A DNA stretch of 63,868 nt from Schleiferia thermophila. Lineage in GTDB: Bacteria > Bacteroidota > Bacteroidia > Flavobacteriales > Schleiferiaceae. Positions 28,045-63,868 of this stretch are shown here, piece by piece. The stretch is taken from positions 1 through 63,868 of the forward strand of contig NZ_QPJS01000006.1 of assembly GCF_003337435.1 (NCBI RefSeq), in the 5' to 3' direction. Under the pieces are notes generated by a model. That model saw nothing but the letters and a program-made list of their open reading frames with translations, had not been told where the DNA came from and ran no database searches. A program made the position numbers and the translations under genes. The first letter of the stretch is position 1. Each line of letters begins with the position of its first letter.

Positions 28045-28814
28045 TGTTTATGACAAAACTAACTATATGGATTACCGGCGCAAGTGCCGGATTTGGCAAG
28101 GCTACAGCGCTAAAGCTAGCTGCCGAAGGACATAACCTTGTCCTCATGGCCAGGCGCGCCGATCGCCTGGCTGAGGTGGAGAAAGAGTGCCAAATGTCGG
28201 GTTCGAACACTTTGTCGCTACCTGCTGATGTCAGAATTCAGCACGATATAGAAGTCGCAGCCAGTAAAGCTGTTGAACATTTTGGCCCGCCGGACGTACT
28301 GGTCAACAATGCAGGTCTGGCTCTTGGTCTCGACAGATTTGACCTGGCCAATCCGGAGCACTGGAACACCATGATCGATACCAATGTAAAAGGACTCCTC
28401 TACATGGGCAGAGCTGCTGCCAAATACATGATTGAAACTGGTAAAGGCCATATCATCAACATCGGCTCTCTGGCGGGTAAAGAAGTCTATCCAGGTGGAC
28501 ACGTGTACTGTGCCACCAAGCATGCAGTGGAGGCCATAACCAAAGGCATGCGACAGGATTTGTTTAAGTTTGGCATTCGCGTGAGTCAGATCTCACCCGG
28601 TCTTGCCGAAACAGAATTTTCCACCGTACGATTTGAAGGCGACCTTCAGCGCGCTCACAACGTTTATAAAGGCATGCAGCCCCTTACAGCCGAAGATATT
28701 GCCAACTGCATCCACTTCGTTATTCATCAGCCTCAGCATGTCTGCATTCACGATATTGTACTGACGCCTACTGCACAGGCAACCTCCACATTGATCAATC
28801 GAACGGGCCAATGA
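28044..28814 (+). CDS. Short-chain dehydrogenase/reductase
   Basis: A classical SDR of 256 aa. It shows the cofactor motif TGASAGFGKATA, the NNAG motif in LVNNAGLALG, the catalytic serine in IINIGSLAGKEVYPGG and the YxxxK dyad in YCATKHAVEA. RRADRL after the second strand favours NADP. The pattern is close to YdfG-type 3-hydroxy acid (serine/allothreonine) dehydrogenases, but substrate is not fixed. The first ATG is at 28044 and a second in-frame ATG at 28050 is equally good. Its TGA overlaps the dprA ATG. Confidence 0.92.
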   Translation: MFMTKLTIWITGASAGFGKATALKLAAEGHNLVLMARRADRLAEVEKECQMSGSNTLSLPADVRIQHDIEVAASKAVEHFGPPDVLVNNAGLALGLDRFDLANPEHWNTMIDTNVKGLLYMGRAAAKYMIETGKGHIINIGSLAGKEVYPGGHVYCATKHAVEAITKGMRQDLFKFGIRVSQISPGLAETEFSTVRFEGDLQRAHNVYKGMQPLTAEDIANCIHFVIHQPQHVCIHDIVLTPTAQATSTLINRTGQ

Positions 28815-29944
28815 CCCAGACATTGCACCCTACAGACGATGAGCTTTTCTACTTCCTGGCACTGCACATGATTCCAGGGATAGGTCCTGCTTTGGCCAAA
28901 ACCCTCATTTCCTATCACCACACTGCACGCCAGGTATTTCAGACTAAAATTTCTGCCTTAAGTACTACTCCCGGTATTGGGCGGGTACTTGCAGAGCGCA
29001 TCCAAAACTTTCTCAAAGATCACGGCCGGCAGGTCGAAATGGAATACAACTACCTTAAAAAAAACAACATACAGATACTCGCCTTCTACTCACCAGACTT
29101 CCCCAGCCGACTCAAAAATATCCCCTCCTCGCCTTCCATTTTGTTTTACAAAGGCAATATCAACCTAAACGATTTTCACCTGGTAGCCATCGTAGGCACC
29201 AGAAAAGCCACTCCCTATGGCTCACTTGTCACTAAGAAAATCGTAGAAGACCTAAAAAAATACAATGTCTGCATAGTCAGTGGTCTGGCTTATGGTATTG
29301 ATGTTATTGCACACAAAGCCGCCCTTGAACACGGCATACCCACCCTGGCAGTTTTAGCTCATGGACTCGACAGAATTTACCCACCCCTACATACCCCCGT
29401 CGCCAAAGAAATCTCTGCCTCAGGAGGATTGCTCACGGAATATTTCCGGGGCTCTAAGCCTGATAAAGAAAATTTCCCCGTCAGAAATCGCATCGTAGCC
29501 GGTATGTGCGAAGTCGTAATTGTAGTGGAAGCAGCCGATAGCGGAGGAGCTTTGATTACAGCAGATTTTGCCCGTAGCTATCGTCGGGAAGTCTTCGCTG
29601 TACCGGGAAGATTAGGCGATGTGTATTCCGAAGGAACCAATCAGCTGATCAAACAAGGCGAGGCGCACCTTTTTACCGATGCCGACGACCTTGCCAATAT
29701 CCTCCATTGGGATCTGCCCGGCCGGGACCAACGGCCTAAAATCATTCAGGCCGACTTGTTTCCCCATCTCACCGATGCAGAAGCTGAGATTTACCAACTC
29801 CTTAAAAGTACCGAAAAAGTCCACATCGACCAAATTATGATGCAGACCGATCTGCCCCTCTCAAAACTACTGTCCATGCTCACAGAGATGGAGCTTAAGG
29901 GGGCTATTATCAGCTTACCTGGAAAAGTATTTCAAGCCCTATGA
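28811..29944 (+). CDS. dprA: DNA processing protein DprA
   Basis: A 377-aa protein that loads RecA on incoming single-stranded DNA during transformation. An N-terminal helix-hairpin-helix/SAM-like region (MIPGIGPALAKTLI, TTPGIGRVLAERI) leads into the Rossmann-like core with IVGTRKATPYG, SGLAYGIDVIAHKAAL, LAVLAHGLDRIYPP, NFPVRNRIVAG and EAADSGGALITADFA. A winged-helix C-terminus follows. It overlaps the SDR and recJ genes by four bases on each side. DprA is also found in organisms not known to be naturally competent. Confidence 0.95.
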   Translation: MTQTLHPTDDELFYFLALHMIPGIGPALAKTLISYHHTARQVFQTKISALSTTPGIGRVLAERIQNFLKDHGRQVEMEYNYLKKNNIQILAFYSPDFPSRLKNIPSSPSILFYKGNINLNDFHLVAIVGTRKATPYGSLVTKKIVEDLKKYNVCIVSGLAYGIDVIAHKAALEHGIPTLAVLAHGLDRIYPPLHTPVAKEISASGGLLTEYFRGSKPDKENFPVRNRIVAGMCEVVIVVEAADSGGALITADFARSYRREVFAVPGRLGDVYSEGTNQLIKQGEAHLFTDADDLANILHWDLPGRDQRPKIIQADLFPHLTDAEAEIYQLLKSTEKVHIDQIMMQTDLPLSKLLSMLTEMELKGAIISLPGKVFQAL

Positions 29945-31661
29945 GTCTAGAACAGTACGAATGGATTCTAAAACAGCAGGAGATAACCCCCGATATCCTC
30001 GAACTGAGCCGGCAGCTCGATTTTATCCCTTCTTACAGCGCACTTCTCTACAACAGAGGTATCACCTCCTTTGAACTGGCACGGAAGTTTTTCAAACCCA
30101 CCCCAGAGGATTTGTACAATCCTTTTCAGCTGGCCGATATGGACAAGGCCGTCGACCACCTTTCTGAAGTCATCCGAATGGGTAAAAAAATCATGTTTTA
30201 CGGCGACTATGACGTAGACGGAACTACCTCTGTGGCACTGATGTCCCGATTCTTCAGAACCTTTTATCCCAACTTTACCACCTACATCCCAGACCGATAT
30301 ACCGAAGGTTATGGCCTTACATCCGTAGGAATAGCCAAAGCCGCTGCCGAAAAAGTTCACACCATTGTGGCCCTGGATTGCGGCATCAAATCACTGGCCC
30401 TCGCCAGCGAAATCGGCAGATTAGGAATGCACCTTATCGTCGTCGACCACCACACCCCTGGTGCGGTCCTGCCAGAAGCTGTGGCCGTTGTAGACCCAAA
30501 ACGCCCCGACTGTCACTACCCCTTCAAAGAGCTTTCTGCCTGCGGACTGGCCTACAAGCTCGCCCTGACTCTGGCTCACAGGCTGGAGCTCGACCCGGAA
30601 TACGTTCACAGCATGCTCGATCTCGTGGCCCTCAGCATCGGAGCTGATATGGTGCCCCTTGTCGATGAAAACCGCACCCTCATGAAGCTGGGCCTGCAAG
30701 TGCTCAATCAACACCCATCCCCGGGATTACAAGCCCTCATCACTTCAGCAGGTATCAAGACTCCTGTCACATCACATCATATCGGTTTCCTGCTGGGCCC
30801 CGAATCAATGCCGCCGGACGTATCGAACACGCCAATCTCGCCCTGTCACTCCTCACCACCGACCAACCCTGCCAGGCCAATCAAATCGCTCAGGAAATCG
30901 AAAAACTCAACACCGAGCGAAAAACCACTCAAGACCTCATAGCCTCCGAAGCCATCCACATGGTAAAACACAACCCCTCCCGCTATCGCTATGCCATAGT
31001 GCTTCAGGGACACGACTGGCTAAAAGGCGTAATCGGCATCGTAGCCGCACGACTCGTTGAGGAATTTCATCGACCTGCCATCGTATTCACCCGCAGCGGT
31101 GATTTCCTCGTTGGCTCTGCCCGCAGCATCCTCACCGTAAACATCTACGATGCCCTTAACTTCTGCAGCCACATCATCCATCAGTTCGGAGGTCACAGCC
31201 ATGCCGCCGGCGTCACCCTGCTGCCCGACAACTTCGAACTCTTCTTTCACTCCATCAGCGAGGTGATTAAAAGACAAGCCACGCCAGAAACGTTCAAAAA
31301 AAAACTCTTCGCCGAAGCCGAAATCAAACTCGCTGACATCGATGACAAACTCATCAGACTCTCCACAACTCACCTACAGCCCACCGGCATCGGAAATCCA
31401 ACCCCACATTACATCAGCCGAAACCTCAAAGTACTCAACAACAGCCGATTGATCGGCTCCGACCAATCCCATATCAAGCTCTACCTGCACGAACCCGAAA
31501 CCAATACATATATACAAGCCGTATGGTTTTCTAAAGGCCATCACTTCCCCCACATCATCAATGCCGGCACCGTCGATGCCATCTATACCCTCGACTTCAA
31601 CACCTTCAACGGCCACTCCGCCAAGCAACTCAAACTCCTCGACCTAAAAATCAATCCATAA
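29941..31661 (+). pseudogene. recJ: Single-strand exonuclease RecJ, split by a -1 frameshift
   Basis: Two reading frames together make a ~573-aa RecJ, normal length. Frame one (from 29941) carries the DHH domain: FYGDYDVDGTTS, VALDCGIKS and VVDHHTPG. It loses homology after GFLLGP at 30801. The minus-one frame continues RINAAGRIEHANLAL, restoring the family motif GPRxNAAGR, then the DHHA1 region (RLVEEFHRPAIVF, FGGHSHAAGVTL) and the OB fold to 31661. One base missing from the C run at 30798-30801 explains it. The run is part of G GGC CCC, a canonical -1 slippery heptamer in frame, so programmed frameshifting is formally possible. Without slippage the product is 333 aa with a foreign tail. RecJ degrades single-stranded DNA 5' to 3' in recombination and mismatch repair. 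The gene overlaps dprA by four bases. Confidence 0.88.
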
Positions 31662-31782
31662 CCAGCCCTGTCCATTAAACCGCCTCCTTCACCCTTTTTA
31701 ACAAAAATGCCAAGGCTCGACGCACCCAAAAAATAAAAGATACACACCCTATCTTTACACCATTTCACCCAAACTTACCCAA

Positions 31783-32694
31783 ATGAACATTACTCAGCTC
31801 GCGGCCATCGACATCGGCTCCAACTCCATCAGACTGCTCATTTCCAATGTGATAAAAAGCAACAAAGAAGTCCACTTCAAAAAAATTTCACTCACCCGAC
31901 TACCCGTCAGACTCGGCAGCGACTCCTTCACCAAGCAGAAAATATCAAAAAAAACTGAAAGAAAAATCATCGCCGGAATGATGGCCTTCAAATACCTCAT
32001 GGAAGTTCATGAAGTATCCATCTATCGCGCCTGCGCCACCTCAGCCATGCGCGATGCTACCAACGGCCCCAAAATCATACAGGACATCCACCAAAAAACT
32101 GGCATACACGTCGAAATCATCTCCGGACAGGAAGAAGCACGCCTCATCAAAAACAACGAATTTATCACCAAACTCCTTCAAAGAGAGCCCAACATACTCT
32201 ACATCGACGTCGGAGGCGGCAGCACAGAGCTCAGCCTCATCCAAAAAGGCCTGCTTACCGCCTCCGCGTCCTTCAACATTGGCACCGTTCGCCTCCTGAA
32301 CGGCCTTGTAAGCGACAGCGATTGGTACTCCATTAAAGACTGGATTAAGCAAAATACCTCTCACATCAAAGACCTCGCAATGGTAGGCAGCGGAGGCAAC
32401 ATCAACCGCCTCTTCAAGCTCAGCGGCAAGCCCCAAGGCGTACCCCTTACCCTCGAATATCTGGAGAGCACCTTTGACTACCTCCAAAAATTCAGCCGCC
32501 AGGAGCTCATCCTCAAGCTCGACCTGAATCCCGACCGCGCCGACGTCATCCTCCACGCCTGCCGCATCTACCTGAGCGTTATGCGATGGGCAGGAGCCGA
32601 GCTGATGTATGTCCCAAAGCTCGGCCTGGCCGACGGCATCGTCCGGGAGCTGTACCATACCTTAACCCACTCCTCCCCTCCCAGTCGCAAGTAA
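31783..32694 (+). CDS. Exopolyphosphatase / guanosine pentaphosphatase family protein
   Basis: A 303-aa Ppx/GppA phosphatase domain protein with the ASKHA fold: AAIDIGSNSIRLLISNV (phosphate 1), the YRACATSAMRDATNG segment, EEARLI and the DVGGGSTELSLI motif (phosphate 2). It has only the two core domains, like short bacterial Ppx proteins, and lacks the C-terminal HD-like domain of E. coli Ppx. It hydrolyses polyphosphate or pppGpp; which one is not decidable. The coding strand is strongly C-rich, reaching 26 C to 13 G in the 60 bases 32521-32580. Confidence 0.9.
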   Translation: MNITQLAAIDIGSNSIRLLISNVIKSNKEVHFKKISLTRLPVRLGSDSFTKQKISKKTERKIIAGMMAFKYLMEVHEVSIYRACATSAMRDATNGPKIIQDIHQKTGIHVEIISGQEEARLIKNNEFITKLLQREPNILYIDVGGGSTELSLIQKGLLTASASFNIGTVRLLNGLVSDSDWYSIKDWIKQNTSHIKDLAMVGSGGNINRLFKLSGKPQGVPLTLEYLESTFDYLQKFSRQELILKLDLNPDRADVILHACRIYLSVMRWAGAELMYVPKLGLADGIVRELYHTLTHSSPPSRK

Positions 32695-33408
32695 ATTTAT
32701 CACCCCGGGTGCTTAACCCCCCGGCATTTCCACCATCGCTTTACGGATTCCAATACGTTGGGCGCCTCCCCCGGCCGCAATATCTGCGCGGCCGGGGGCC
32801 GGTCTACGGCTCCTATTCCCCTTGCAGTTCGGGCGTGGCACATCGGGCCGCGGTGGCTTGCTGCCGCTCCGCCTCCTCGCCCGTGTGCCACACGGCCCGC
32901 CTGCTGCGGCTCATATCCGCCTCCGCCCTGGCGCGTGTTACCACGCTCAACCAGCCTCCAGGTATTCATACTCAAGCCAGCAATGAAGTACTTCCACCAA
33001 GATACCAGCCATTTACCACACATTTAGCAAGTCACCAATCCAGTTTTACCAATCCAAAGCAGAATTACCCGCACCAAGCACAAGTAATTTCAGACTGCTG
33101 TCTGTATCTATCCCTGCACACTTTCTCCAATGTATCCTTGACCCCTGACTTTTTCAGACCAGCACAAGTGATGACGGCCCCTCTGACACATCCCTTGTCA
33201 TCCGCATCTCCTTGCATCCCAGTCTTTTAACACAGCAGCTTTTCTAATCTCAGTTATCAGCATCCAAAGCCAATACCTGAGTTTTTTACAGTTGTCTCGT
33301 TCCGGCAAGTATTCCTTCCGGCATTTTACACGGGTACCGCTACCAAAACTTATAGAATTCACCTCCTTAAACGGAGAACCCGTTCAACTTCAGGCTAGAA
33401 GAGTCAAT
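32695..33408. other. Gene-free region around repeat A
   Basis: 714 bases between two convergent genes, ppx/gppA and kdsD. Apart from repeat A at 32758-32945 I see no RNA gene, promoter or coding frame with family features. The portion after the repeat stays C-rich and G-poor on the plus strand (for example 23 C and 7 G in 33181-33240) although it is not coding. Confidence 0.65.
32758..32945 (+). repeat. GC-rich structured repeat, family A
   Basis: About 190 bases of very GC-rich sequence with no supported gene. The left end has a perfect 11-base inverted repeat, CCCCCGGCCGC (32768-32778) and GCGGCCGGGGG (32788-32798), over a nine-base loop. Further in are GTGGCACA and TGTGCCAC, an alternative CGGGCCG/CGGCCCG pair, and GCGG/CCGC around 32861-32878. 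Every frame across it is open for a time, which produces false proline/arginine-rich ORFs. I recall similar intergenic segments in other Bacteroidota genomes but cannot verify this here. It stands 64 bases after the ppx stop. It differs in sequence from the repeats at 57.3 and 63.8 kb. Confidence 0.75.
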
Positions 33409-34365
33409 TTATTGAATATCGTAAATCTGAATCACTCCCAGAAGTTCTTCGGTCATCTCATCTATCACCACCAGACTGTTGATTTTATGATCAATCATTT
33501 TTTGCTCAGCCTCTTTGAGCGATGCCGTTTGATGAATGGTTTTTGGATTAGGAGTCATGATTTCAAAAGCGCGCAAATCAAAAGCATTTTTTCCCTTTTT
33601 TTCGAAGAGACGTCTGAGATCACCATCGGTAATAATGCCTTGCACCCTTCCATTGCCCTTGACAAGAGCCAGCCCAAGTCTACCAGCGCTCATCGCATTG
33701 ATAACAATCGCTAGGGAGCTTTCCGGAGGCACAACCGGAAGATTCTCTGTACGCATGTGATCCTTTACCTTGCTGAGCAACCTCCGGCCAAGACTACCAC
33801 CCGGATGAAAGCGCGCAAAATTTTCTTCCCTGAACCCTTTAATTTTCATCAGGCAAATGGCCAGCGCATCGCCCAGGGCAAGCGTTACTGTGGTAGAAGA
33901 GGTAGGCGCCAGCTCCAGTGGACAAGCTTCTCTGGTGATGGCAATTTGTATGTGAGCATCGGAATTACGCGCTAGTGTACTGTCGCATTTTCCACTTAAG
34001 CTGATCAGCTTGTTGCCATTGAGTTTCAGATACGGAATCAGTTTCAGTATTTCATCTGTTTCACCGGAATAGCTTATAGCCAGTATTGTGTCCTGGCTGT
34101 CGATCATACCCAGATCGCCGTGATAGGCTTCTGCCGGATGCATAAAAAAACTGGGAGTACCGGTACTGGCCAAGGTAGCCGAAATTTTACGCCCGATATG
34201 TCCAGACTTACCCATACCGGTTACTACCACCTTTCCCCGCGATTGGCTGATAAGCTGTACGGCCCTCAGAAATCCATCGTCAAGTGAAGCAGAAGTGAGC
34301 GCCAGCGATTCAATTTCAATATCAAGGGTTTTTCGCGCTGTTTCGAATATTTCAGTTGGATTCAT
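33409..34365 (-). CDS. kdsD: Arabinose-5-phosphate isomerase (KpsF/GutQ family)
   Basis: A 318-aa enzyme, standard length, converting ribulose 5-phosphate to arabinose 5-phosphate for Kdo synthesis. The SIS domain (~35-185) contains VVVTGMGKSGHIGRKISATLASTGTPSFF, AYHGDLGMI and AISYSGETDEIL. Two CBS domains fill ~205-318. It overlaps kdsA by four bases in a kdsC-kdsA-kdsD order of transcription, which supports the Kdo role over a gut operon role. Confidence 0.94.
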   Translation of the reverse strand: MNPTEIFETARKTLDIEIESLALTSASLDDGFLRAVQLISQSRGKVVVTGMGKSGHIGRKISATLASTGTPSFFMHPAEAYHGDLGMIDSQDTILAISYSGETDEILKLIPYLKLNGNKLISLSGKCDSTLARNSDAHIQIAITREACPLELAPTSSTTVTLALGDALAICLMKIKGFREENFARFHPGGSLGRRLLSKVKDHMRTENLPVVPPESSLAIVINAMSAGRLGLALVKGNGRVQGIITDGDLRRLFEKKGKNAFDLRAFEIMTPNPKTIHQTASLKEAEQKMIDHKINSLVVIDEMTEELLGVIQIYDIQ

Positions 34366-35141
34366 CGGGCAATTAATTCGACGAGCAACTCTTCAAAACG
34401 GTCCAGATAGTACATATTTGCTGCATCACTAAGGCCTTTAGGCGGATCAGGGTGTACTTCAAAGAAGTACCCATCCGCACCAAACGCCTTGGCAGCCAGA
34501 GCCATAGGTTTTACCAGCGCGCGATTTCCCCCGGTTACGCCCCCTCCGGGCTGTTGCACGGCATGTGTGCAGTCCATGATCACAGGTACACCATGCAGCT
34601 TCATGGCAGGAATGTTACGGAAGTCCACTACCAGATTGTTGTATCCCATTATGTTCCCCCTTTCGGTCAGCCACACCTGCTCGTTACCGGTGCTTTTAGC
34701 TTTCTCCAGAGGATATTTCATATCTTCAGCCGTTAGAAATTGAGCTTTTTTGATATTAACTACACGTCCGGTTTGAGCTGCAGCTACCACCAGGTCAGTC
34801 TGCCTGCACAGAAAGGCAGGAATTTGTAGCACATCCACCACTTGCCCGGCAGGCCCAGCTTGATAGCTCTCGTGAATATCGGTGGTCACTTCCAGTTGAT
34901 AGCGCGATTTGATATCTTGCAGCCAGGTCAGCCCCTTTTCCAATCCGGGCCCCCTGAAAGAGTGTACCGATGTGCGATTGGCCTTGTCAAAACTGGATTT
35001 AAACACGATGCGGTATCCCTTTCTGTTTTTGATGTCGTGCAGCACTGATGCCACCTCGTCCAGCAGACCGGGACTTTCCATCACACATGGGCCTGCAATC
35101 ACTACAGGCCGGGACTTTGAATACTCGTATAAGGAAGTCAT
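34362..35141 (-). CDS. kdsA: 3-deoxy-D-manno-octulosonate 8-phosphate synthase
   Basis: A 259-aa TIM-barrel enzyme that condenses arabinose 5-phosphate with phosphoenolpyruvate to Kdo 8-phosphate. Motifs: VVIAGPCVMESPGLL, KSSFDKANRTSVHSFRGPG, TDIHESYQAG, IPAFLCRQTDL, GYNNLVVDFRNIP, MDCTHAVQQPGG and FFEVHPDPPKGLSDAAN. The FRGPG and CDxTHxVQ elements are characteristic. It lies directly between kdsC (abutting) and kdsD (four-base overlap). Confidence 0.96.
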   Translation of the reverse strand: MTSLYEYSKSRPVVIAGPCVMESPGLLDEVASVLHDIKNRKGYRIVFKSSFDKANRTSVHSFRGPGLEKGLTWLQDIKSRYQLEVTTDIHESYQAGPAGQVVDVLQIPAFLCRQTDLVVAAAQTGRVVNIKKAQFLTAEDMKYPLEKAKSTGNEQVWLTERGNIMGYNNLVVDFRNIPAMKLHGVPVIMDCTHAVQQPGGGVTGGNRALVKPMALAAKAFGADGYFFEVHPDPPKGLSDAANMYYLDRFEELLVELIAR

Positions 35142-53808: not shown

Positions 53809-54060
53809 ATGAGCAGCGTTTTTTTGAAAGATGATAATAAAAAAAGCCCGTAAAAGTATCAGCCAACCAGATAATCTTTAATAAGACATCGGTAAATTTA
53901 TCCCTGGATATAGAAGACGGAGAGCCTTGGAAGTTTATCTGATGAATATCGGGACCTCATCTCTAAAAAAAATCTCACAAAAAACAATCTATGCCACTTC
54001 AGGCCCCTTTTGCCGGCCGAAACTCCCTGAACAAAAGCCGGCGGAAAGCTGATTTGATCC

Positions 54061-54068
54061 TATTTTTG
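54061..54068 (+). promoter_or_regulatory. -7 box immediately before the 1081-aa gene
   Basis: TATTTTTG matches TAnnTTTG and ends five bases before the ATG at 54074, so the mRNA would be leaderless or nearly so, the second such case in the window. No -33 box at the right distance. Confidence 0.45.
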
Positions 54069-54073
54069 TTTAT

Positions 54074-57000
54074 ATGCTCCGGTACTTTGTTTACGCCCTA
54101 ATATTTGCTATTGAAGCTGTCACCAGCGTCCATTCACAATTTTATTACGGCCTGGTCCAGCAATTTGGCAAAAACCGGGTTCAATACAATCAGTTTGAAT
54201 GGGGTTTTTACCGGTTTGACCGTTTTGATATATACACCTATGCCGACAATACCCTGTATCCACAGGCAGTTGCCAACCTTGTCTTCCGCAATTTGAAAGA
54301 GCTCGAAGTAATCCTTGAAGTCAACCTGGAAGGCAGATTTCAAGTGATTCTATTCAATACCCATGGCGACCGCCTACAGTCAAATCTCAACCCCGACATC
54401 AACCAACCCGCCAATTCTACCAGAGTTATCCTACAGGGAAGACAGTCCACTCTTCTCCTGCATTTTACGGGAAGTTACCAAACCCTCGAACAGGAAATAA
54501 GAGCCGGACTGGCACGGCTACTCCTACACTTTCAAATGTTCGGTGACCTCCAGCCAGCCGGCATTGATTTAATGCGGATACATTTCCCGGACTGGTTTAC
54601 CGAAGGATTAATCTCGTACCTTGCCTATGGAAACGACGAGCGGATTTCCTGGCAGATTTTAGAACTTCACTCCCGAAACGCCTTCCGACGTATCAATACC
54701 CTTGATGCCGATTTGGCCAGACTGGCTGGTCACGGCCTTTGGTCTTACATCGGATTGAACTACGGCCGCGGAGTAATCAAAAACATCCTCTTTACAAGCC
54801 TTATCCACCGAAGCCTCGATTATGGAATAGAATACGTCCTCGGCATCTCCACCAAAGAATTAATCAAACGCTGGAAACTCTCCAACGACAAGTGGCTCAA
54901 TGACCTGCAAAACTACTCCCTGCCAAACCAATCCATCGCCCTGCTCAAGCTACACAGCCACCACAGCATCACAGCACTAGACCCCAATCCATCCCTCAAT
55001 CAACTGGCCATAGCCTCCGTTAAAAGAGGCAAGCGGTATGTACATCTGTACACCTTCAAAACAGGCAAGAAGAAAAGACTTTACACCTCCGGCCATCGAA
55101 GTTATGAGCCACCAGACCACCAACTCCCTATACCAGTCTGGAATCCATCCCTACCCATCCTGCTCATCATCGACGAAAAAAACGGATTCATCAGACTCAA
55201 TTTCTACGATTTCGAAGAAAAAAAATGGACCAAAAAACCCCTCTATGGCGTTACCAAAATATTTTCAGCCAGTTACAGCCCCGATGGACAAAAACTCCTA
55301 CTCAGCGCCATGAAAGATGGGCGAACCGACATTCTGGAATACGACATCCGAAACACCTCCCTCAAAAACATCACCTCCGACATCCACACCGACCTGTATC
55401 CCATCTACATTTCAGGCAACGACTGGATTGCCGTATCCACCAACCGTACCCAGCCGCCCCAACCTTCCAAAGAACCTCATCCTGAATTACGACCAGAAAA
55501 CCTTCAAATCTTCCACCGCAAACAGGAAGACAAAACCACCCTGCTGCTTGCCTCCGACAATAAATCCGGCCGTCCTCATAAGCTCAAAAGGGGTACCCTC
55601 ATCTATTCCGAATGGTCTCAGAATCTGTCAACTACCTTCACCTTAGCAACCCTCGACAGTGCTGTTACTCGTGTCGATACAGCCATACATTACCGCTATT
55701 ATACCAACACAACTCCACTGGCTGAGCTTCCCGGTATTATTTCCCATTACGCTCCGGGACCTGATAGTTCGACACTTATACTCTCCATTACCGACAGAAA
55801 AGGACGTCCGCAGATAATACTTCAAACTATACCCGACAATACATCAAAAACCAACCTCCAGCCATTCAAAACCCACCAGCTCTCCGATACCCCTCAGACC
55901 ATCACAGGCATCCGCTCTAAAGTCAGAACTCCCCTCTACGAATTTTATATAGACGATTATGAATTTGACCCCCGACTCATCGATAAATATCGCCCCACCG
56001 GCAAAAGCAGGCCAGCAGCCCCCACACAGCTCCAGGCTCCGTCCATTTTATCAAAAATACAACCCCTCGCCCGAAAACAAGAAGATGTCAAACTTCCCCC
56101 CCGCAGACCATACCTCCTCAGCTTCTATCGCGACCACCTCTCCTTCAATCTCGACAATGCCTTCCTTATCCCCCAGTACCAACCCTTTACCGGCAGACCA
56201 CAACCCCACCTGCTCAATCCTCAAATCAACGCAATGACCAGAATCACTGTGGCTGATGTGTTGAAAGATTACAAACTACTTCTGGGATTCCGCGCAGAGC
56301 TCAACCCCCTGGCAGGCCGGTCCTTGTCCCCAAACCATGAACTGCTGCTTTGGTTCGGAAACCACAAAAAACGCTGGAAACACGAATACACCCTCTACCG
56401 CCGAAGCATGGTGGTCACCGGCAACCAACCCGTCTGGCTCAGATATCTCACCCACGAAGGCCAGTACAAAGCCATCTTCCCAATTGACGAAGTCAGGTCG
56501 ATACACCTCAGCCCATCCTACCGGCTCGACACCCGCATAGCACTAGCCCGCGAAGCAAACTCACTGCAGCAACCCACCGAGTACCAACACTTCGCGATAC
56601 TCAGAGCCTCCTTCGTACATGACGAATCCCTCAGCCGTGGCATCAATCTCTGGACAGGTTTCCGATACAAAATATTCAGCGAATACTACCGAAATCCCCT
56701 CCGTACCGGTTCAGGCCTCTTCACCGCAGGTCTCGACTTCAGACACTACCTGCCCACCGGCAGGTCAGCCATTTGGGCAAATAGACTTGCCCTTGGCACC
56801 TCCTTTGGACCTGAGCGCCTCCTGCACTTTCTCGGAGGAGTCGACAACAACTTTACCCCAAAATTCGACGAAAACACTCCCATTGCCACCACCCAACAGT
56901 ACATTTTCCAAACACTGGTCACCAACATGCGAGGCTTTTTCCAAAACGCCCGCAACGGAAACAATTTCGCCCTCATCAACTCGGAGCTCCGACTGCCCAT

Positions 57001-57319
57001 CTTCCGGATGCTCCTTCAGCGCCCCATCCGAAACAACTTCATTTCAAACTTCCAACTCCTGCTCTTCAGCGACGTAGGCACCGCCTGGAACGGCATCTCA
57101 CCCCTCAGCCCCGAGAATGCCATCAACACCACCATCATCGACCAAGGCAATCTTCGCATCATCATCGACAGCCGCAAAGACCCCCTCATCGCCAGCATAG
57201 GAGCCGGCATGCGACTGGTACTCTTCGGCCACATCGTTCGCATCGACTACGCCCGCGGTATCGAAGATTACACCCTGCTGCCCGGCATGTTTCACATATC
57301 CATAGGGTTTGATTTTTAG
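54074..57319 (+). CDS. Exported three-part protein: MA-peptidase-like, beta propeller, surface-antigen barrel
   Basis: A 1081-aa protein with signal peptide (MLRYFVYALIFAIEAVTSVHSQ). Residues ~25-280 resemble the MA-type peptidase domain found in Bacteroidota exported proteins, with FPDWFTEGLISYLAYG, but the zinc HExxH is replaced by LEQEIRAGLARLLL, so it is probably inactive. Residues ~290-640 contain TolB/WD40-like PD40 repeats (FSASYSPDGQKLLLSAMKDGRTDIL). The last ~400 residues are an Omp85/surface-antigen-like barrel with LWTGFRYKI, TGSGLFTAGLDFRHYL and LLQRPIRNNF, ending in phenylalanine. The gene starts with balanced composition and grows strongly C-rich toward its end. Its stop codon overlaps the GC-rich repeat. 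Confidence 0.82.
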   Translation: MLRYFVYALIFAIEAVTSVHSQFYYGLVQQFGKNRVQYNQFEWGFYRFDRFDIYTYADNTLYPQAVANLVFRNLKELEVILEVNLEGRFQVILFNTHGDRLQSNLNPDINQPANSTRVILQGRQSTLLLHFTGSYQTLEQEIRAGLARLLLHFQMFGDLQPAGIDLMRIHFPDWFTEGLISYLAYGNDERISWQILELHSRNAFRRINTLDADLARLAGHGLWSYIGLNYGRGVIKNILFTSLIHRSLDYGIEYVLGISTKELIKRWKLSNDKWLNDLQNYSLPNQSIALLKLHSHHSITALDPNPSLNQLAIASVKRGKRYVHLYTFKTGKKKRLYTSGHRSYEPPDHQLPIPVWNPSLPILLIIDEKNGFIRLNFYDFEEKKWTKKPLYGVTKIFSASYSPDGQKLLLSAMKDGRTDILEYDIRNTSLKNITSDIHTDLYPIYISGNDWIAVSTNRTQPPQPSKEPHPELRPENLQIFHRKQEDKTTLLLASDNKSGRPHKLKRGTLIYSEWSQNLSTTFTLATLDSAVTRVDTAIHYRYYTNTTPLAELPGIISHYAPGPDSSTLILSITDRKGRPQIILQTIPDNTSKTNLQPFKTHQLSDTPQTITGIRSKVRTPLYEFYIDDYEFDPRLIDKYRPTGKSRPAAPTQLQAPSILSKIQPLARKQEDVKLPPRRPYLLSFYRDHLSFNLDNAFLIPQYQPFTGRPQPHLLNPQINAMTRITVADVLKDYKLLLGFRAELNPLAGRSLSPNHELLLWFGNHKKRWKHEYTLYRRSMVVTGNQPVWLRYLTHEGQYKAIFPIDEVRSIHLSPSYRLDTRIALAREANSLQQPTEYQHFAILRASFVHDESLSRGINLWTGFRYKIFSEYYRNPLRTGSGLFTAGLDFRHYLPTGRSAIWANRLALGTSFGPERLLHFLGGVDNNFTPKFDENTPIATTQQYIFQTLVTNMRGFFQNARNGNNFALINSELRLPIFRMLLQRPIRNNFISNFQLLLFSDVGTAWNGISPLSPENAINTTIIDQGNLRIIIDSRKDPLIASIGAGMRLVLFGHIVRIDYARGIEDYTLLPGMFHISIGFDF

Positions 57320-57443
57320 GGCGTGCCCCCGCGCGCCGGCCACCTTCACGTGGCCTTGCCGCGCGGGGTCGGGCTGCTCCGGGGTACGCTTCGCTCCCGT
57401 GCTGCGCACCGCCCTTCGGGCGCCCTCCGCATCCCTCACGCAT
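57318..57443 (+). repeat. GC-rich structured repeat, family B, copy 1
   Basis: About 125 bases starting within the stop codon of the preceding gene (AGGGCGTGCCCCC...). The outer stem is CCCCGCGCG (57327-57335) with CGCGCGGGG (57360-57368). The inner hairpin GGCCAC/GTGGCC (57338-57343, 57350-57355) has loop CTTCAC. A second hairpin is CGCCC-TTC-GGGCG near 57410-57422. The same unit recurs at 63759, with the inner hairpin replaced by another that still pairs. It is not coding. Confidence 0.85.
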
Positions 57444-58591
57444 AGCCTAATCGTCAATCCAGCCACCATTTATCCTCCCATCATTTCATGTAAATCTATC
57501 CCCTCATCTTTTAACCTCCCGGTCCGGATGCTCCCTGTTTGGAAGACATAATTAACCCCAAATCACAAGACTGCGCATCACCACCTGCCATTCATGGCAT
57601 TGAAAATTTGCCAATACTCCTCACACTCAAACAACAGCTCAGCAGCATCGCGTTCTCCCCTAGCATATTCAGGCCCCCGGGAATAGTTGACTATTTTTAT
57701 AAATTTCCCACCCATGAAGCAATACCTATTTATTTACCCGGTTCGCTTTTTAATTTACCTTAAATGTCCTAAATGTCCTCTCCTATTTCTTCAATCACAG
57801 TTACCTCCAACCGACCAACTCAAGCCTAAATTTTTTCGTTCTTTTCGAAATTTCAGAAGGTGGATAAGTTTTTATTCTTTCCGGAGCCTTAGCCTTCTCA
57901 TAAAAAGTGAATTTTACTCCACCATTGCATGAATCTCTCCTCAGGTTCTTTTGTAGAATCTTCATCGGGTTTAATGCCGGGGTTTTTAATTTCACTCCTC
58001 CTATGAATCATTGCTTCACCCGGGCAGCGATACCTTTTATGCCGAGTGAAGTATTCAGCAAATCACCCATTTACCTTTTTCCAAATCCTCAGAATTATTA
58101 GGGTGAAGTTCATTGCATCAGAGCTATAAATAGTACAGCTGGCCGAAGAGCATAAAATAAAGATAATTCCCCTTGACACCATGCGTTGTAAATTCCATGT
58201 ATGTTCAAAAGTAATTGAATATGAAGCATATAGTTATTTTACTCAAGAAGTGTACTGCTGTGACCTTTTCCCAGGTCCTATTTAAAATTTGTAAGCTTCC
58301 CAAATAAAACAGCCCGCACATTATCAGGCGCATCGAATCCCCTAAAAATGCCTCATTGTCCACATCCCCTTTTCAGTATAGCTACACCCCCGGATATCAC
58401 ACAACGGGAGCAATTCCCCGTTTTGCAATCAGTAAAGCAGGCCTGGCATCCACAAACTAATCCCTTCTTAACCATCACATCGTCAATCAGTTGTTTTTAA
58501 TCAACCTCCTCTTGGGTCTTCCACCAAATCAATAAAATGTAGATACACAGATTTTACATACATTTAACCTCCAACCAAAAACGACCCATCT
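57444..58591. other. Long gene-free region after repeat B copy 1
   Basis: About 1150 bases without a supported gene. Composition changes from C-rich near the repeat (57481-57540: 20 C, 7 G) to balanced, AT-rich sequence by 57.9 kb. Short frames (for example 57907-58101 and 58181-58285) lack family features. Just before the amidohydrolase gene is TACATTTA, one mismatch from the -7 box. Confidence 0.55.
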
Positions 58592-61582
58592 GTGAAGCGT
58601 ATATTATTGATATACATGGTATTAAATGTGCTTTATGCCGCAGCACAGACCGAGCAGCCAAAGCCTGGCATCACCGAATCCGACGAGCTCATTACTGTAT
58701 ACAAAGATGCATTAGTGGTCACGGAACCGGGAGCTACCCCTCAAAGGCTCAACATTGCCGTACGCAAAGGCCGGATTATCAGAATCAGCACTCAGCCTCC
58801 ACAGCCCGGAGAGATTGTTAAAGATTGCTCAGGCATGTATTTATACCCCGGCTTCATAGACCTGATGAGCAACTATGGACTCTCTGCTGCAGAACAGACT
58901 CCTGCACGCCGACCCTTAGGACCCATTAAATATGATAGAACACGACATGGTGCACGTCATTGGAACGATGCCATCCGCTCCGAATTTCACTCTTACGAAG
59001 AATTCAATTATCAAAAAAAACAGGCCGACGACTATCAAAAAGCCGGTATCACTGTCGTATTGACCCATCGCCGTGATGGAATAGCCCGCGGCAGCGGAAG
59101 CCTTGTACTCACAGGCCATGCATCTGAAAATCACCTTATACTTCGCGAAAGAGCCTCCATGCACTACTCCTTCACCAAAGGCAGCAGCACACAGCCCTAT
59201 CCCACTTCGCTCATGGGTTCTATAGCATTGCTCCGACAGCTATTCAGCGATGTAGATTGGTACCGCAAAGGCGGCCGCGACGGCTCCATCAACCTCGCCA
59301 TAGCCTCTGAAGCAGCAGCTCTGGGTCTGCCCGCCATTTTCGAAACCAGAGACTTCTACGATATCTGGCGCATTCACGCTCTGGGACGTGAATTTTCCAG
59401 AGAATTTATCATCCTGGGTAGCGGTCGTGAATATCAGAGAGTCACAGACCTCAAAGCCCTTAAACCTAAACTCATTCTTCCCCTTCAACTGCCAAAGGTC
59501 CCGGACGTCTCTTCACCTCTGGAACTTAAACACATCACCTGGGAAAAACTCGCCCATTGGGATATGGCCCCCTTTAACCCCGCAATCCTCCACCGCGAAG
59601 GAATCACATTCGCCTTTACCACCCATGGACTTAAAGATAAAAAAGACCTTTGGAGGTCGCTCTCCGAAATGCTAAAAGCAGGTCTCGACACAGCTACCGC
59701 CTTGGCAGCATTTACCACTGTACCAGCTGCGTGGATAGGAGCCGATGACCTTATCGGCCGCATCAAAGTAGGACAGGTGGCTTCCTTTATCGGCCTCGAA
59801 AAACCCTTCGGCACAGAAGACAATCGCGTATTGCTCCACCTGAGCTATGCCGAAAACATCTTTGAACCCATCATCAAACCTTCTCCAGGAGTCTACACAG
59901 CTACCTTGCACGATACCACCGCTCAGCTGCTCATATATCCATCCGGCAATAAACTCATTTACAAATGGACAGCAACCGATACCCTCGACGTCGTCGCCAC
60001 ACTCCAGGCCTACAACATTACCCTTAAAATCCCCTTAAGCAAGAAAAACAAAACTTATCGAATCCTGGAAGGCACCTTCACCCCAAACACCATTTCAGGC
60101 TACTACCTCGACCAAAACGGACAATTGCACACCTGGACAGCACATAAAACTGCTGACCTGCCCGATACCTCTAGGCCTAAAAGCGATAGCATCCGTCAAA
60201 TACCCGATTATACCAGATTTCCATTCACCGCCTGGGGACATAAGAGTCCACCTCCCGCAGAGCATCTGCACATCAAGGGAGCCACCATTTGGACCATGGA
60301 ACCCCAGGGCAAACTCGAAAATGCCGATATCATCATTCGCGAGGGCAAAATAGTTGCCATCGGAACCAATCTGCCGACACCGCGTGGCGCGCAAGTGCTC
60401 GATGCCAAAGGCATCCATATCACCCCGGGCATCATCGATGAGCATTCCCACATTGCCATCTATGGTGGTGTTAACGAAGGCTCCCATTCCATAACTTCCG
60501 AAGTGCGCATCGGCGACGTCATCAACCCAGATGACATCAACATCTACCGCCAACTTGCAGGTGGAGTTACCGCAGCTCAGTTACTGCACGGCTCTGCCAA
60601 CTCCATAGGCGGACAAAGCGCCCTCGTAAAACTACGCTGGGGAGCCCTGCCCGAACAAATGAAAATATCCGGCGCACCGGGCTTCATTAAATTCGCCCTT
60701 GGCGAAAACGTAAAACAAAGCAACTGGGGCGAAGGCAACGTCACCAGATTCCCTCAAACCCGCATGGGCGTAGAACAAGTCTTCGCCGACGCCTTCAACC
60801 GTGCCAAAGAGTACGACCGCAGAAAAAAAGCCGCCCAAAAAGCAAAAATACCTTTCCGCACAGATTACCAGCTGGAAGCCCTGTCCGAAATTCTCAACGG
60901 CTCCAGACACATCACCTGCCACTCCTATGTGCAAAGCGAAATCAACATGCTGATGAAACTAGCCGACTCCCTCGGCTTTAAAGTCAATACCTTTACCCAC
61001 ATTCTCGAAGGCTACAAAGTCGCCGACAAAATGAAAGAACACGGCGCCAATGCTTCTAGCTTCAGCGATTGGTGGGCCTACAAGTGGGAAGTCAAAGACG
61101 CCATACCCTTCAATGCAGCCATTCTCACCCGCGTAGGCGTCAATACAGCCATCAATTCCGACGACGCCGAAATGGGTCGGCGTCTCAATCAAGAAGCCGC
61201 CAAGACCGTTAAATACGGTGGACTAAGCGAAGTTGAAGCCCTCGCCACGGTCACCATCAATCCTGCCCGCATGCTCAGAATAGACCACCTGACCGGAAGC
61301 CTAAAACCTGGCAAAGACGCAGACCTTGTCCTTTGGAATGGCCACCCGCTGCTCAGCAGCTCCTTTCCACTGGCCACCTTTGTCGATGGACGCCGTCTCT
61401 ACGACTACCACAGCCAAAACGAGCATCGCCTTCGTATCGATGAAGAAAAAAACAAACTCATCCAAAAAGCCCTCTCTGCCATCGCTCAAGGCAAGGAAAA
61501 AGAAAAACCCAAAGCCGACCAAAACTTTATGTATCACTGTGAAACCATCATTCAATATGCAGCCGATGAAGACCTGGATTAA
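58592..61582 (+). CDS. Tandem amidohydrolase protein, one degenerate and one complete module
   Basis: A 996-aa exported protein starting at GTG 58592 with signal peptide MKRILLIYMVLNVLYAAAQ. The first module (~25-440) has the amidohydrolase lead-in MYLYPGFIDLMSNYG, where the metal HxH is missing. The second module (~560-970) has GIIDEHSHIAIYGG with intact HxH, HITCHSYVQSE and FTHILEG histidines, and NSDDAEMGRR with the catalytic aspartate, then NPARMLRIDHLTGSLKPGKDADLVLWNG. The second half should be a periplasmic hydrolase of the imidazolonepropionase/dipeptidase-like group; the first may be structural. The next gene overlaps by 17 bases and encodes another amidohydrolase-like module without HxH. 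Confidence 0.87.
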   Translation: MKRILLIYMVLNVLYAAAQTEQPKPGITESDELITVYKDALVVTEPGATPQRLNIAVRKGRIIRISTQPPQPGEIVKDCSGMYLYPGFIDLMSNYGLSAAEQTPARRPLGPIKYDRTRHGARHWNDAIRSEFHSYEEFNYQKKQADDYQKAGITVVLTHRRDGIARGSGSLVLTGHASENHLILRERASMHYSFTKGSSTQPYPTSLMGSIALLRQLFSDVDWYRKGGRDGSINLAIASEAAALGLPAIFETRDFYDIWRIHALGREFSREFIILGSGREYQRVTDLKALKPKLILPLQLPKVPDVSSPLELKHITWEKLAHWDMAPFNPAILHREGITFAFTTHGLKDKKDLWRSLSEMLKAGLDTATALAAFTTVPAAWIGADDLIGRIKVGQVASFIGLEKPFGTEDNRVLLHLSYAENIFEPIIKPSPGVYTATLHDTTAQLLIYPSGNKLIYKWTATDTLDVVATLQAYNITLKIPLSKKNKTYRILEGTFTPNTISGYYLDQNGQLHTWTAHKTADLPDTSRPKSDSIRQIPDYTRFPFTAWGHKSPPPAEHLHIKGATIWTMEPQGKLENADIIIREGKIVAIGTNLPTPRGAQVLDAKGIHITPGIIDEHSHIAIYGGVNEGSHSITSEVRIGDVINPDDINIYRQLAGGVTAAQLLHGSANSIGGQSALVKLRWGALPEQMKISGAPGFIKFALGENVKQSNWGEGNVTRFPQTRMGVEQVFADAFNRAKEYDRRKKAAQKAKIPFRTDYQLEALSEILNGSRHITCHSYVQSEINMLMKLADSLGFKVNTFTHILEGYKVADKMKEHGANASSFSDWWAYKWEVKDAIPFNAAILTRVGVNTAINSDDAEMGRRLNQEAAKTVKYGGLSEVEALATVTINPARMLRIDHLTGSLKPGKDADLVLWNGHPLLSSSFPLATFVDGRRLYDYHSQNEHRLRIDEEKNKLIQKALSAIAQGKEKEKPKADQNFMYHCETIIQYAADEDLD

Positions 61583-62849
61583 TGCACTTCCACTGGCCAT
61601 CCTACTTTCTGGTTACACCTACGGCCAGTCTACCTTTCATGCTCTTATCAATGGTCGCATTTACACCGGTACCTCCGTCATTGAACAAGGATTTGTCACC
61701 TTCAGCAATGGCGTCATACAAGCCGTCGGTTCCATGGCCGAATGGCCGGATACCCCGCCTTCAGGAGCGCGTATCATCGATGTAAGCGGCCAGTATATTT
61801 ATCCCGGATTCATGGCACTTGACTCCCGCGTGGGCCTCACCGAAATCGACGCTGTACGAGCCACACGCGACTTTGCCGAAGTAGGTTCCTTCAATCCTCA
61901 TGTACGCTCCCTCATCGCCTACAACACCGACTCCCGCATCATCGAAACCATCCGCACCAATGGCGTACTCATCGTACAGCCGGCGCCCACCACCGGAATC
62001 CTCAGCGGTCAGTCTTCTGTTATGCGTCTTTCAGGCCACAACTGGGAAGAAGCCGTCCTGAAAGCTGATGACGGATTTTACCTCAACTGGCCTGAAGCCA
62101 TCGAAACCACCGGCTGGTGGGCCGAACCGGGCGACGACCAAAAAAACGAAAAATATCTCCAACAAACCAAGGAAATCGAAGAATACCTCTCAAAAGCCCG
62201 TGCATACGCCCTCGACCCCAATCCCCCCTACGATGTCAAACTCAGTGCCCTTAAATCCCTCTTTACCGACCCGAGCCGGCGACTCTACATTCGAGCTCGC
62301 CGTGCCCGTGAAATCAAAGACGCACTCCACCTATGCTCCAGATTAGAAATTGCACGACCCGTAATCTCTGGTGGTTGGGAAGCCGACCTTGTAGCCGACT
62401 TGCTCCGCCAAACCAATACACCCGTAATCCTCGACCGCCTCACACGACTTCCCGACAGCAAAGACGAACACGTACACAAACCTTACTATCTCCCGGCCAT
62501 CCTCGATAGCCTCGGCATCACCTTCGCCTTTTCCTACACCGGCAGCATGGAAGCCATGGGCACCCGAAACCTACCCTTCACAGCTGGCATGGCCACCGGA
62601 TACGGACTCTCCGAGCTGGCAGCCATTAAAGCCATTTCCGCCAACCCTGCCAAAATCGCCGGCCTCGACCACTACCTTGGCACCATTGCACCCGGTAAGG
62701 CTGCTATTCTCTTCGTCAACCCCGGCAACGCACTCGAAATGCTCACCAATAATCCCTCCTACATCTTTATCCTGGGAGAAGAAATCCCTACTACCAACTT
62801 TCAGACCGACCTCTATCACCACTACCTGAAAAGATACCAGCTGGATTAA
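61566..62849 (+). CDS. Amidohydrolase-like protein lacking the metal motif
   Basis: A 427-aa exported protein. ATG 61566 gives the signal peptide MKTWINALPLAILLSGYTYG; the open frame runs further upstream but inside the previous gene. The amidohydrolase lead-in IYPGFMALDSRVGLTEI has no HxH, as in the first module of the upstream protein. The C-terminal NPAKIAGLDHYLGTIAPGKAAILFV is typical of the family. With the 996-aa protein it makes three modules in tandem of which only one keeps the metal ligands. It may be a partner subunit. The coding strand is strongly C-rich. Confidence 0.83.
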   Translation: MKTWINALPLAILLSGYTYGQSTFHALINGRIYTGTSVIEQGFVTFSNGVIQAVGSMAEWPDTPPSGARIIDVSGQYIYPGFMALDSRVGLTEIDAVRATRDFAEVGSFNPHVRSLIAYNTDSRIIETIRTNGVLIVQPAPTTGILSGQSSVMRLSGHNWEEAVLKADDGFYLNWPEAIETTGWWAEPGDDQKNEKYLQQTKEIEEYLSKARAYALDPNPPYDVKLSALKSLFTDPSRRLYIRARRAREIKDALHLCSRLEIARPVISGGWEADLVADLLRQTNTPVILDRLTRLPDSKDEHVHKPYYLPAILDSLGITFAFSYTGSMEAMGTRNLPFTAGMATGYGLSELAAIKAISANPAKIAGLDHYLGTIAPGKAAILFVNPGNALEMLTNNPSYIFILGEEIPTTNFQTDLYHHYLKRYQLD

Positions 62850-62871
62850 TCATGCCCGAATACTGCTACCC

Positions 62872-63726
62872 ATGCCCTTCTTTTCAGTCGTAATTCCCGT
62901 GTACAACGCCTCACCTTACATCGAAGAGTGTCTGCATTCCGTCATTGGCCAGTCTTACAAAGACTTTGAAATCATCATCGTCGACGACGCCTCCACCGAC
63001 GACTCTCTGCACAAAGTCCGACAATTCTTCGAAGCCTTTCCCTCCTTCGAGCCAAAAATTCTCACCCACCCCACCAATCGTGGCCTTGGAGCCGCCCGCA
63101 ATACAGGCGTCTTTCGTGCCAATGGCCAGTACATCGCTTTCCTCGATGCCGACGACTACTGGGCCATCACCCGTCTTGAAAAAGCCGCATCCTATCTCGA
63201 AATTTTTCCCATCTGGGACCTCCTCTATCATCCAGTAATCGAGTTCTACAACGGCAAGCGCCGAAAGCGCCATGCCCGCTTCACCACCAGTCTCGACGAT
63301 TTAATCCTCCACGGCAATCCCCTTGTGCCCTCCGCCGTGGTCCTGAGCCGTCGCATCGCCCTCGAGCATCCCTTTGTCACAGATCCCGCATTCCTCGGCG
63401 TAGAAGACCTCGACCTATGGCTCCGCCTGCTTCAGGCTCAAATCCGCACCGCAATGATACCCGAGCCCCTGACCTTTTACCGCATCACTACCGGCCTTAC
63501 TTCACAGATCAGCATACACCTCAACCGCTGCCACAAAGTCTTCAGCCGCTACTTAAAAGAAGAATACATAACCCCAGCCATGCAGCGTAAATATTACGAA
63601 GCAGCCCGACTGATGCAGAAGACCGGACGTCACCTTCGAGCCGAAATTTTCTACCGTTGGAGCAATCAGACCAATATCAAAACCAAACTTTTACGCCTGC
63701 TTAATCGCTTTAAAATCGCAATATAA
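62872..63726 (+). CDS. GT2 family glycosyltransferase
   Basis: A 284-aa GT2 enzyme starting PFFSVVIPVYNASPYIEECL, with IIIVDDASTDDSL (nucleotide site), the metal motif FLDADDYW and the acceptor-side stretch VEDLDLWLRLLQAQ. No transmembrane helix. Acceptor unknown, but surface polysaccharide is likely. Twenty-two bases follow the amidohydrolase stop, so cotranscription is possible. The plus strand is strongly C-rich (63481-63540: 24 C, 8 G). Confidence 0.9.
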   Translation: MPFFSVVIPVYNASPYIEECLHSVIGQSYKDFEIIIVDDASTDDSLHKVRQFFEAFPSFEPKILTHPTNRGLGAARNTGVFRANGQYIAFLDADDYWAITRLEKAASYLEIFPIWDLLYHPVIEFYNGKRRKRHARFTTSLDDLILHGNPLVPSAVVLSRRIALEHPFVTDPAFLGVEDLDLWLRLLQAQIRTAMIPEPLTFYRITTGLTSQISIHLNRCHKVFSRYLKEEYITPAMQRKYYEAARLMQKTGRHLRAEIFYRWSNQTNIKTKLLRLLNRFKIAI

Positions 63727-63758
63727 CATCCTTTTTTTTAGATTCTTGGATTTTCCTG

Positions 63759-63868
63759 AGGGCGTGCCCCCGCGCGCCGGCCTTGCGGCCTTACCGCGCG
63801 GGGTCGGGCTGCTCCGGGGTGCGCTTCGCTCCCGTGCTCCGCTGCGCTGCGCACCGCCCTGCGGGCGC
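63759..63868 (+). repeat. GC-rich structured repeat, family B, copy 2, cut by the window end
   Basis: Starts AGGGCGTGCCCCC like copy 1. The outer stem CCCCGCGCG (63768-63776) pairs with CGCGCGGGG (63795-63803). The inner hairpin is now GGCC-TTGC-GGCC (63779-63790), shorter than in copy 1 but still self-paired. The shared block TCGGGCTGCTCCGGGGT follows, then an extra segment CTCCGCTGCG absent from copy 1, and the CGCCC-TGC-GGGCG hairpin. The repeat runs off the edge of the window. Confidence 0.85.

Follow-up and report, generated by a model that had tools for sequence, protein, structure and literature searches.

Polar, one-strand C enrichment flanking short dispersed repeats in Schleiferia thermophila

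Differences in base composition among bacterial genes are commonly ascribed to replication strand, transcription, codon selection and genome-wide mutation bias. In Escherichia coli, break-associated mutation hotspots that depend on DNA polymerase IV (Pol IV) were reportedly described by Shee in 2012, and in the signature of E. coli Pol IV, X becomes G where the base 5' to it on the synthesised strand is G. Among dispersed repeats, repetitive extragenic palindromes (REPs) are palindromes of 20-40 bp tagged GTAG or CGTC (PMC3733652). Here we analysed a stretch of 63,868 nucleotides, hereafter the window, which is contig C6 (positions 1-63868) of the 2.6-Mb genome of Schleiferia thermophila (Bacteroidota; genome G000) and which contains copies of two related repeats, A and B. 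These repeats are short, non-coding elements with complementary ends that act in cis and directionally: the left flank is enriched in C with a decay over ~4 kb, and the right flank is enriched more weakly. Throughout, left, right and the sign of the skew are read along the repeat's own orientation, that is, on the element plus strand.

Among the 63 non-overlapping 1-kb windows of positions 1-63000, the absolute C/G skew exceeded 0.2 at 30001-33000, 54001-58000 and 59001-63000, and all of these lean to C and sit left of, or span, an A or B copy (Table 1). A preliminary description of this DNA had tied a local one-strand shift to the repeat from hand counts of five 60-base lines (28501, 28861, 32521, 33181 and 34021). 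All five counts were exact, and the shift is strongly supported by other copies, by genes in both orientations and by orthologs. Forty stretches around further copies, together with the window, gave 57 copies (25 A, 32 B), and 153 gene 3' ends with no repeat within 6 kb served as the control set; genes were called with a simple longest-open-reading-frame script and not taken from an annotation. Counts aligned on the other copies, a check that the preliminary description had proposed, showed C in excess of G in the left 500 bases of 57/57 copies, and the same held for the right 500 bases in 53 of the 54 measurable copies. The 1-kb skew of the left flank averaged 0.285, being positive in 56 and above 0.2 in 46 of the 57. 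At the control ends it averaged -0.009 (standard deviation 0.087) and was above 0.2 in 0/153. The flank skew is far beyond chance.

Table 1. Positions of the repeats, their C-enriched flanks and the genes used for the ortholog comparison in the window
Feature	Position	Strand	Remarks
C-enriched polar domain left of repeat A	28500..32757	+	covers SDR, dprA, recJ, ppx/gppA genes
Repeat A copy	32758..32938	+	left end GGGCGCC, C-rich hairpin sequence, right end GGCGC; ~180 bp
Non-coding flank right of repeat A, rich in C and poor in G	32939..33408	+	base counts
kdsD-like gene (SIS + CBS domains)	33409..34365	-	ortholog test
kdsA-like gene (DAHP_synth_1 domain)	34362..35141	-	ortholog test
C-enriched polar domain left of first repeat B	54000..57317	+	1-kb skew windows
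Repeat B copy	57318..57445	+	40 matches in G000, some partial
C-enriched polar domain left of second repeat B	58500..63758	+	1-kb skew windows
Repeat B copy, cut by contig end	63759..63868	+	B-type match

The shape of the skew is polar. On the left the mean is ~0.29 next to the element and declines until, 6.5-7.5 kb away, it is close to zero; on the right it drops from 0.32 in the first 500 bases to 0.13 in the second, with a reach of ~1-2 kb. At fourfold sites the left decay length of C is 3.9 +/- 0.6 kb in same-strand genes and 3.6 +/- 0.5 kb in opposite-strand genes, and across the element fourfold C drops from ~0.65 on the left to ~0.40 on the right (same-strand genes). The shift had first been thought to be centred on the repeat; it is instead strongest on the left and steps down on the right, with the repeat forming the edge of a polar gradient. 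An exposure function shaped on the G000 profile correlated with the fourfold skew of 503 G000 genes from the stretches around repeats at r = 0.79, a value that is partly in-sample because of that shaping. Taken over the genome, the repeat-linked polar C skew is almost certainly a real, genome-wide footprint. One repeat A copy (L165, contig C3, 182.9 kb) has an unusually weak left-flank skew and is perhaps a recent insertion or the product of a rearrangement.

The skew tracks repeat orientation and not gene strand. In same-strand genes, fourfold C on the element plus strand rises from ~0.31 far from the element to 0.645 near it, and in opposite-strand genes from ~0.19 to 0.48. Opposite-strand genes thus take the skew direction of the element, which rules out codon choice, as the preliminary description had held, and likewise transcription of the flanking genes. 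Second codon positions are nearly static in same-strand genes, while plus-strand C at these positions moves from ~0.16 to 0.21 in opposite-strand genes. Amino acid usage shifts slightly, with His 1.5x as frequent near same-strand flanks; in opposite-strand flanks it is Trp (1.5x) and Cys (1.4x) that become commoner. In non-coding gaps, C/G is 0.21/0.19 far from elements (52 gaps) and 0.31/0.17 just left of them (11 gaps); just right of them, C is 0.288 and G 0.146 (47 gaps).

At same-strand fourfold sites of G000 near the element, C/T rises 5x, C/G 3.6x and C/A 3.3x. Fourfold A falls from 0.275 to 0.171, the G fraction of two-fold purine codons slips from 0.324 to 0.283, and the C fraction of two-fold pyrimidine codons climbs from 0.43 to 0.72. 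In G001, a Thermaurantimonas-like genome of the sister genus (99% complete), the loss of T is no greater than that of A or G. The shift therefore runs from A, G and T alike to C and not from T alone, and the early impression that G barely changes did not hold, as both G and A fall. Since G falls while C rises, ordinary GC-biased gene conversion is excluded, and the fall of fourfold A makes deamination alone unlikely. The odds of C are up 2.8-4.5x for every following base, and no polar or enriched sequence motif stood out in the C-rich flanks. Inside the C-rich domain of the window, recJ (29941-31661) is split over two frames: the frame with the DHH part ends at 30940 and the frame with DHHA1/OB is open from 30669. 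The frame change falls between 30669 and 30940, where C occurs in runs, and may be either a true frameshift or a sequencing error.

Orthologs with and without an adjacent repeat, a comparison that the preliminary description had also put forward, bear out the link. At the Thermaurantimonas aggregans (Schleiferiaceae) locus L058, a same-strand element lies ~1 kb downstream of kdsD and ~2 kb downstream of kdsA; at the relative locus L057 the end pattern revealed no element; and in the window the nearest element is oppositely oriented. The kdsA product of the window is 80% identical to its T. aggregans counterpart and 82% identical to the one encoded by an uncultured Flavobacteriales genome. On the coding strand, fourfold C/G of kdsD is 0.53/0.13 at L058, 0.21/0.17 at L057 and 0.23/0.30 in the window, and that of kdsA is 0.52/0.12, 0.33/0.17 and 0.22/0.34, respectively. 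Two genes further off differ less, a HAD gene (window 0.29/0.31, L057 0.37/0.20, L058 0.40/0.19) and mrp (0.27/0.26, 0.30/0.21 and 0.35/0.15). The bulk comparison of G000 with G001 used 63 reciprocal-best pairs, accepted down to 45% identity and with genes of one cluster non-independent; the difference in exposure correlated with the difference in skew (Pearson 0.80), the exposure function having been shaped with no part played by G001. Orthologs in the sister genus take on the skew of whichever repeat lies nearest to them there. The signs agreed in 28/30 pairs with a large exposure difference and in 11/13 pairs exposed in one genome only. All five oppositely exposed pairs fell in the expected order, although a single gene cluster supplied three of these and identity is just 48% in one; one of the five combines 89% protein identity with skews of -0.44 and +0.63. 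Protein identity did not fall with exposure over the 63 pairs, a weak test with only two pairs unexposed. Around the elements of G001, skew at -500 was positive in 22/23 copies, with the same polarity as in G000, and by hand count the left skew was positive at 27/27 short loci of G001 and G019, although some of these are cut and the element may enter the bin.

The elements measure ~120-180 bp in G000, where they occur about once per 40 kb, and about 84-260 bp overall. Repeat A has 26 matches in G000, namely 25 copies and one fragment, and repeat B is ~125 bp long and related to A. Copies of both are dispersed over the genome, and both orientations are present on the same contigs. Read from left to right, the copies have in common a T-rich flank, the left end GGGCG.., hairpin sequence rich in C, TCGGGCT (in most copies), a middle that varies and is of the A or the B type, and finally the right end CCCT..CGC. 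Two variable bases within GGGCG../..CGC are complementary in 103/106 elements, mostly from G000 and G001, the pairs being mostly TG/CA, CC/GG and TT/AA. Such ends have the form of terminal inverted repeats, as in a miniature inverted-repeat transposable element (MITE) of a DDE transposon, and they fit an RNA or single-stranded DNA stem equally well. The hairpin stems, read from complementarity and not from a secondary-structure program, vary between genomes and are self-complementary by eye. No target-site duplication was evident by eye, a point on which no systematic test was made. In an Rfam covariance search with one A and one B copy, B gave no match at E up to 5 and the sole match in the A region was below the gathering score and outside the element, and identity with a known RNA family was rejected for want of an Rfam match. 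The strict B-type left-end pattern occurs in 29/395 Bacteroidia genomes and 12/197 genera, G000 counted in.

The median distance to the neighbouring gene is 35 bp from the left end and 297 bp from the right end. The gene on the left is on the opposite strand in 13/57 copies, its plus-strand skew nevertheless leaning to C, and in 13/57 copies the element lies 15-167 bp upstream of a gene pointing away from it, a gap that leaves scant space for a promoter outside the element. Five B-type left ends stand in tandem, mostly at 89-bp spacing, on contig C12 of genome G173 (30-460), in contrast to the dispersed copies of G000. Partial B copies of equal length and the same identity end two contigs (window 63761-63868 and G000 C2 517723-517830); the repeat may thus have broken the assembly, and the two are possibly one copy. 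At L189 (G000 C1, ~430.6 kb), a Y1_Tnp (RAYT-like) gene has its own short palindromes (AACGATTAAAATCGTT); they directly adjoin a short element on its right side, and the left flank of this element is C-rich (skew 0.42).

The one-sided decay and the step at the element point to a process that begins at the element and runs left for a random few kilobases, and a bias from any base to C on the plus strand equals a bias to G on the minus strand. Our best reading, put forward tentatively, is polar, error-prone DNA synthesis or recombination that the repeat triggers into its left flank. A more specific version, which we consider possible though somewhat less probable, makes the repeat a dispersed, directional cis mutator, with recurrent leftward, C-biased, error-prone synthesis over ~4 kb leaving a polar composition gradient at each copy. 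The element would be the site at which breakage, nicking or recombination of the DNA enters or begins, and repair synthesis would head left from it, halting at random after a few kilobases. Such synthesis would be error-prone, with a preference for G when the minus strand is made (or for C when the plus strand is made), and a low-fidelity polymerase, for example the sole Y-family polymerase of G000, would be one candidate for it. The drift itself is probably not adaptive, with selection at the protein level acting as a filter on it. The footprint may reflect mutation or biased fixation. Literature backing for a synthesis engine of this kind is by analogy only: E. coli Pol IV acts in RecB-dependent break repair (PMC7470938), and changes of the type A>G/T>C are produced by mycobacterial DinB1, which also causes -1 frameshifts within runs (PMC9346131).

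Several observations weigh against error-prone synthesis from the repeat. Both G000 and G001 encode a single Y-family polymerase, a number that does not exceed that of relatives, and the sequence context of E. coli Pol IV (5'-GX to 5'-GG) is not seen, with no rise of the odds ratios there. Among variants that lie inside the copies themselves, changes to C are not in overall excess; structure confounds these variants, and the copies were therefore dropped as a mutation record. The relatives compared all lie outside the genus of G000. The right-side decay fit failed for opposite-strand genes. The claim that the shift reaches non-coding DNA stands insofar as gaps shift on both sides of the element, but fourfold sites change more, and under the strictest mask the left-side shift is almost nil (269 and 1795 bases, few). 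A C-rich domain of the usual polar shape at about 186.5-189.3 kb of G000 C3 (L301, 500-3300) has no recognisable element (around 188.5-189 kb), lies next to the weakly skewed copy L165, and may possibly be the scar of a lost element or support for insertion preference, considered below. Among distant carriers, two loci of G029 were negative, and the larger stretches of G173, G095 and G103 showed little or no effect. Other Bacteroidia contributed 28 single loci, whose left 1-kb skew had a mean of 0.069 and was positive in 21, and in G225 the effect is suggestive, with three copies only. The effect is clear in G000 and the Thermaurantimonas-like genomes and strong in only some carriers. As a universal property of the element class it is unsupported, being weak or absent in G173, G095, G103 and G029; in the weak carriers, either the host background matters or the insertions are young.

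The strongest rival, itself unlikely, is a Chi-like, orientation-dependent recombination hotspot at which mismatches in heteroduplex would be resolved with a strand bias, in favour of C on the plus strand that invades; fixation and not mutation would then be biased. The roughly exponential, one-sided decay over ~4 kb and the step resemble the geometry of Chi, and variants within the elements look like an ordinary mutation spectrum, as a fixation bias permits. Such a hotspot, however, requires a mismatch rule that retains C on one strand only, and the GC-conservative change of G to C, which ordinary GC-biased conversion cannot yield, is about as strong as the other changes. The size and spacing of the elements (~120-180 bp, ~one per 40 kb) are also unlike those of known Chi sites.

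Rather improbable is a promoter in or to the right of the element, from which leftward transcription with R-loops would expose the minus strand to transcription-associated mutation. The left decay, a minus-strand G excess of the expected polarity, the ~1-2 kb over which the right flank is touched and the slip of the G fraction in two-fold purine codons, in the direction expected from deamination, all fit it, but deamination of an exposed strand predicts a rise of fourfold A, and fourfold A drops. We give still less weight to selection for a C-rich, G-poor strand near the element, such as a Rho-loading or other polar signal; Rho binds C-rich, G-poor RNA, yet the gradient spans kilobases and several genes in both orientations with no preferred motif. 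Insertion of the elements by preference where DNA is already C-skewed in the matching direction is very improbable. The element-free domain on C3 speaks for it, but orthologs without an element are mostly unskewed, an opposite element goes with an opposite tendency, and the skew steps at the element. The one-strand T-to-C process of the preliminary description, for instance deamination of A on the minus strand, is hardly credible on its own: C/T does rise most in G000 and pyrimidine codons move to C, but A-to-C and G-to-C are nearly as strong and T shows no special loss in G001.

Three candidate agents were considered and set aside. Rewriting by a reverse transcriptase (diversity-generating retroelement or retron) was rejected on the lack of an RVT_1 match in G000, and an extra Y-family polymerase was found in neither G000 nor G001. 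A RAYT/Y1 HUH nuclease was rejected because the element-rich G001 has no Y1_Tnp match, G000 having one.

In the literature covered, largely without subscription journals and including PMC10030826 and PMC2864571, there was no description of the phenomenon or of the repeats. Repeat-directed local drift to C is an unexplained and apparently undescribed force on sequence evolution. A small repeat predicts composition locally and directionally, and accounts for much of the synonymous skew of the 503 genes near repeats. Skew of this kind would bias codon-based prediction of expression and the detection of transferred genes, and the gradients are a natural, sequence-readable record of a polar DNA process.

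Compared with described systems, the footprint shares strand-asymmetric composition with replication and transcription asymmetry, as reviewed in PMC10030826, but here element orientation governs, both orientations occur per contig and gene strand is irrelevant. Break-associated hotspots of E. coli share local mutagenesis near a break and a low-fidelity polymerase in repair (PMC7470938). They differ in having no dispersed element and, as far as is known, no fixed one-strand C bias over evolution. Hotspots of GC-biased conversion share local compositional drift, but G falls here and the C bias is confined to one strand. Integron attC sites were also considered; the elements here are dispersed across the genome. 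REP/RAYT systems and MITE-like repeats are likewise dispersed, intergenic, hairpin sequences, and we know of no such flank effect for REPs. The present elements differ from REPs in their length (about 84-260 bp) and complementary ends; the element-rich G001 is without a Y1_Tnp match, and the one Y1_Tnp gene of G000 adjoins different short palindromes, by eye. Chi with RecBCD or AddAB offers the likeness of an orientation-dependent effect, strongest at the site, with a one-sided kilobase decay. The repeats described here differ from Chi in being long and rare, with complementary ends and a weaker effect on the right, and the readout is base composition rather than measured recombination.

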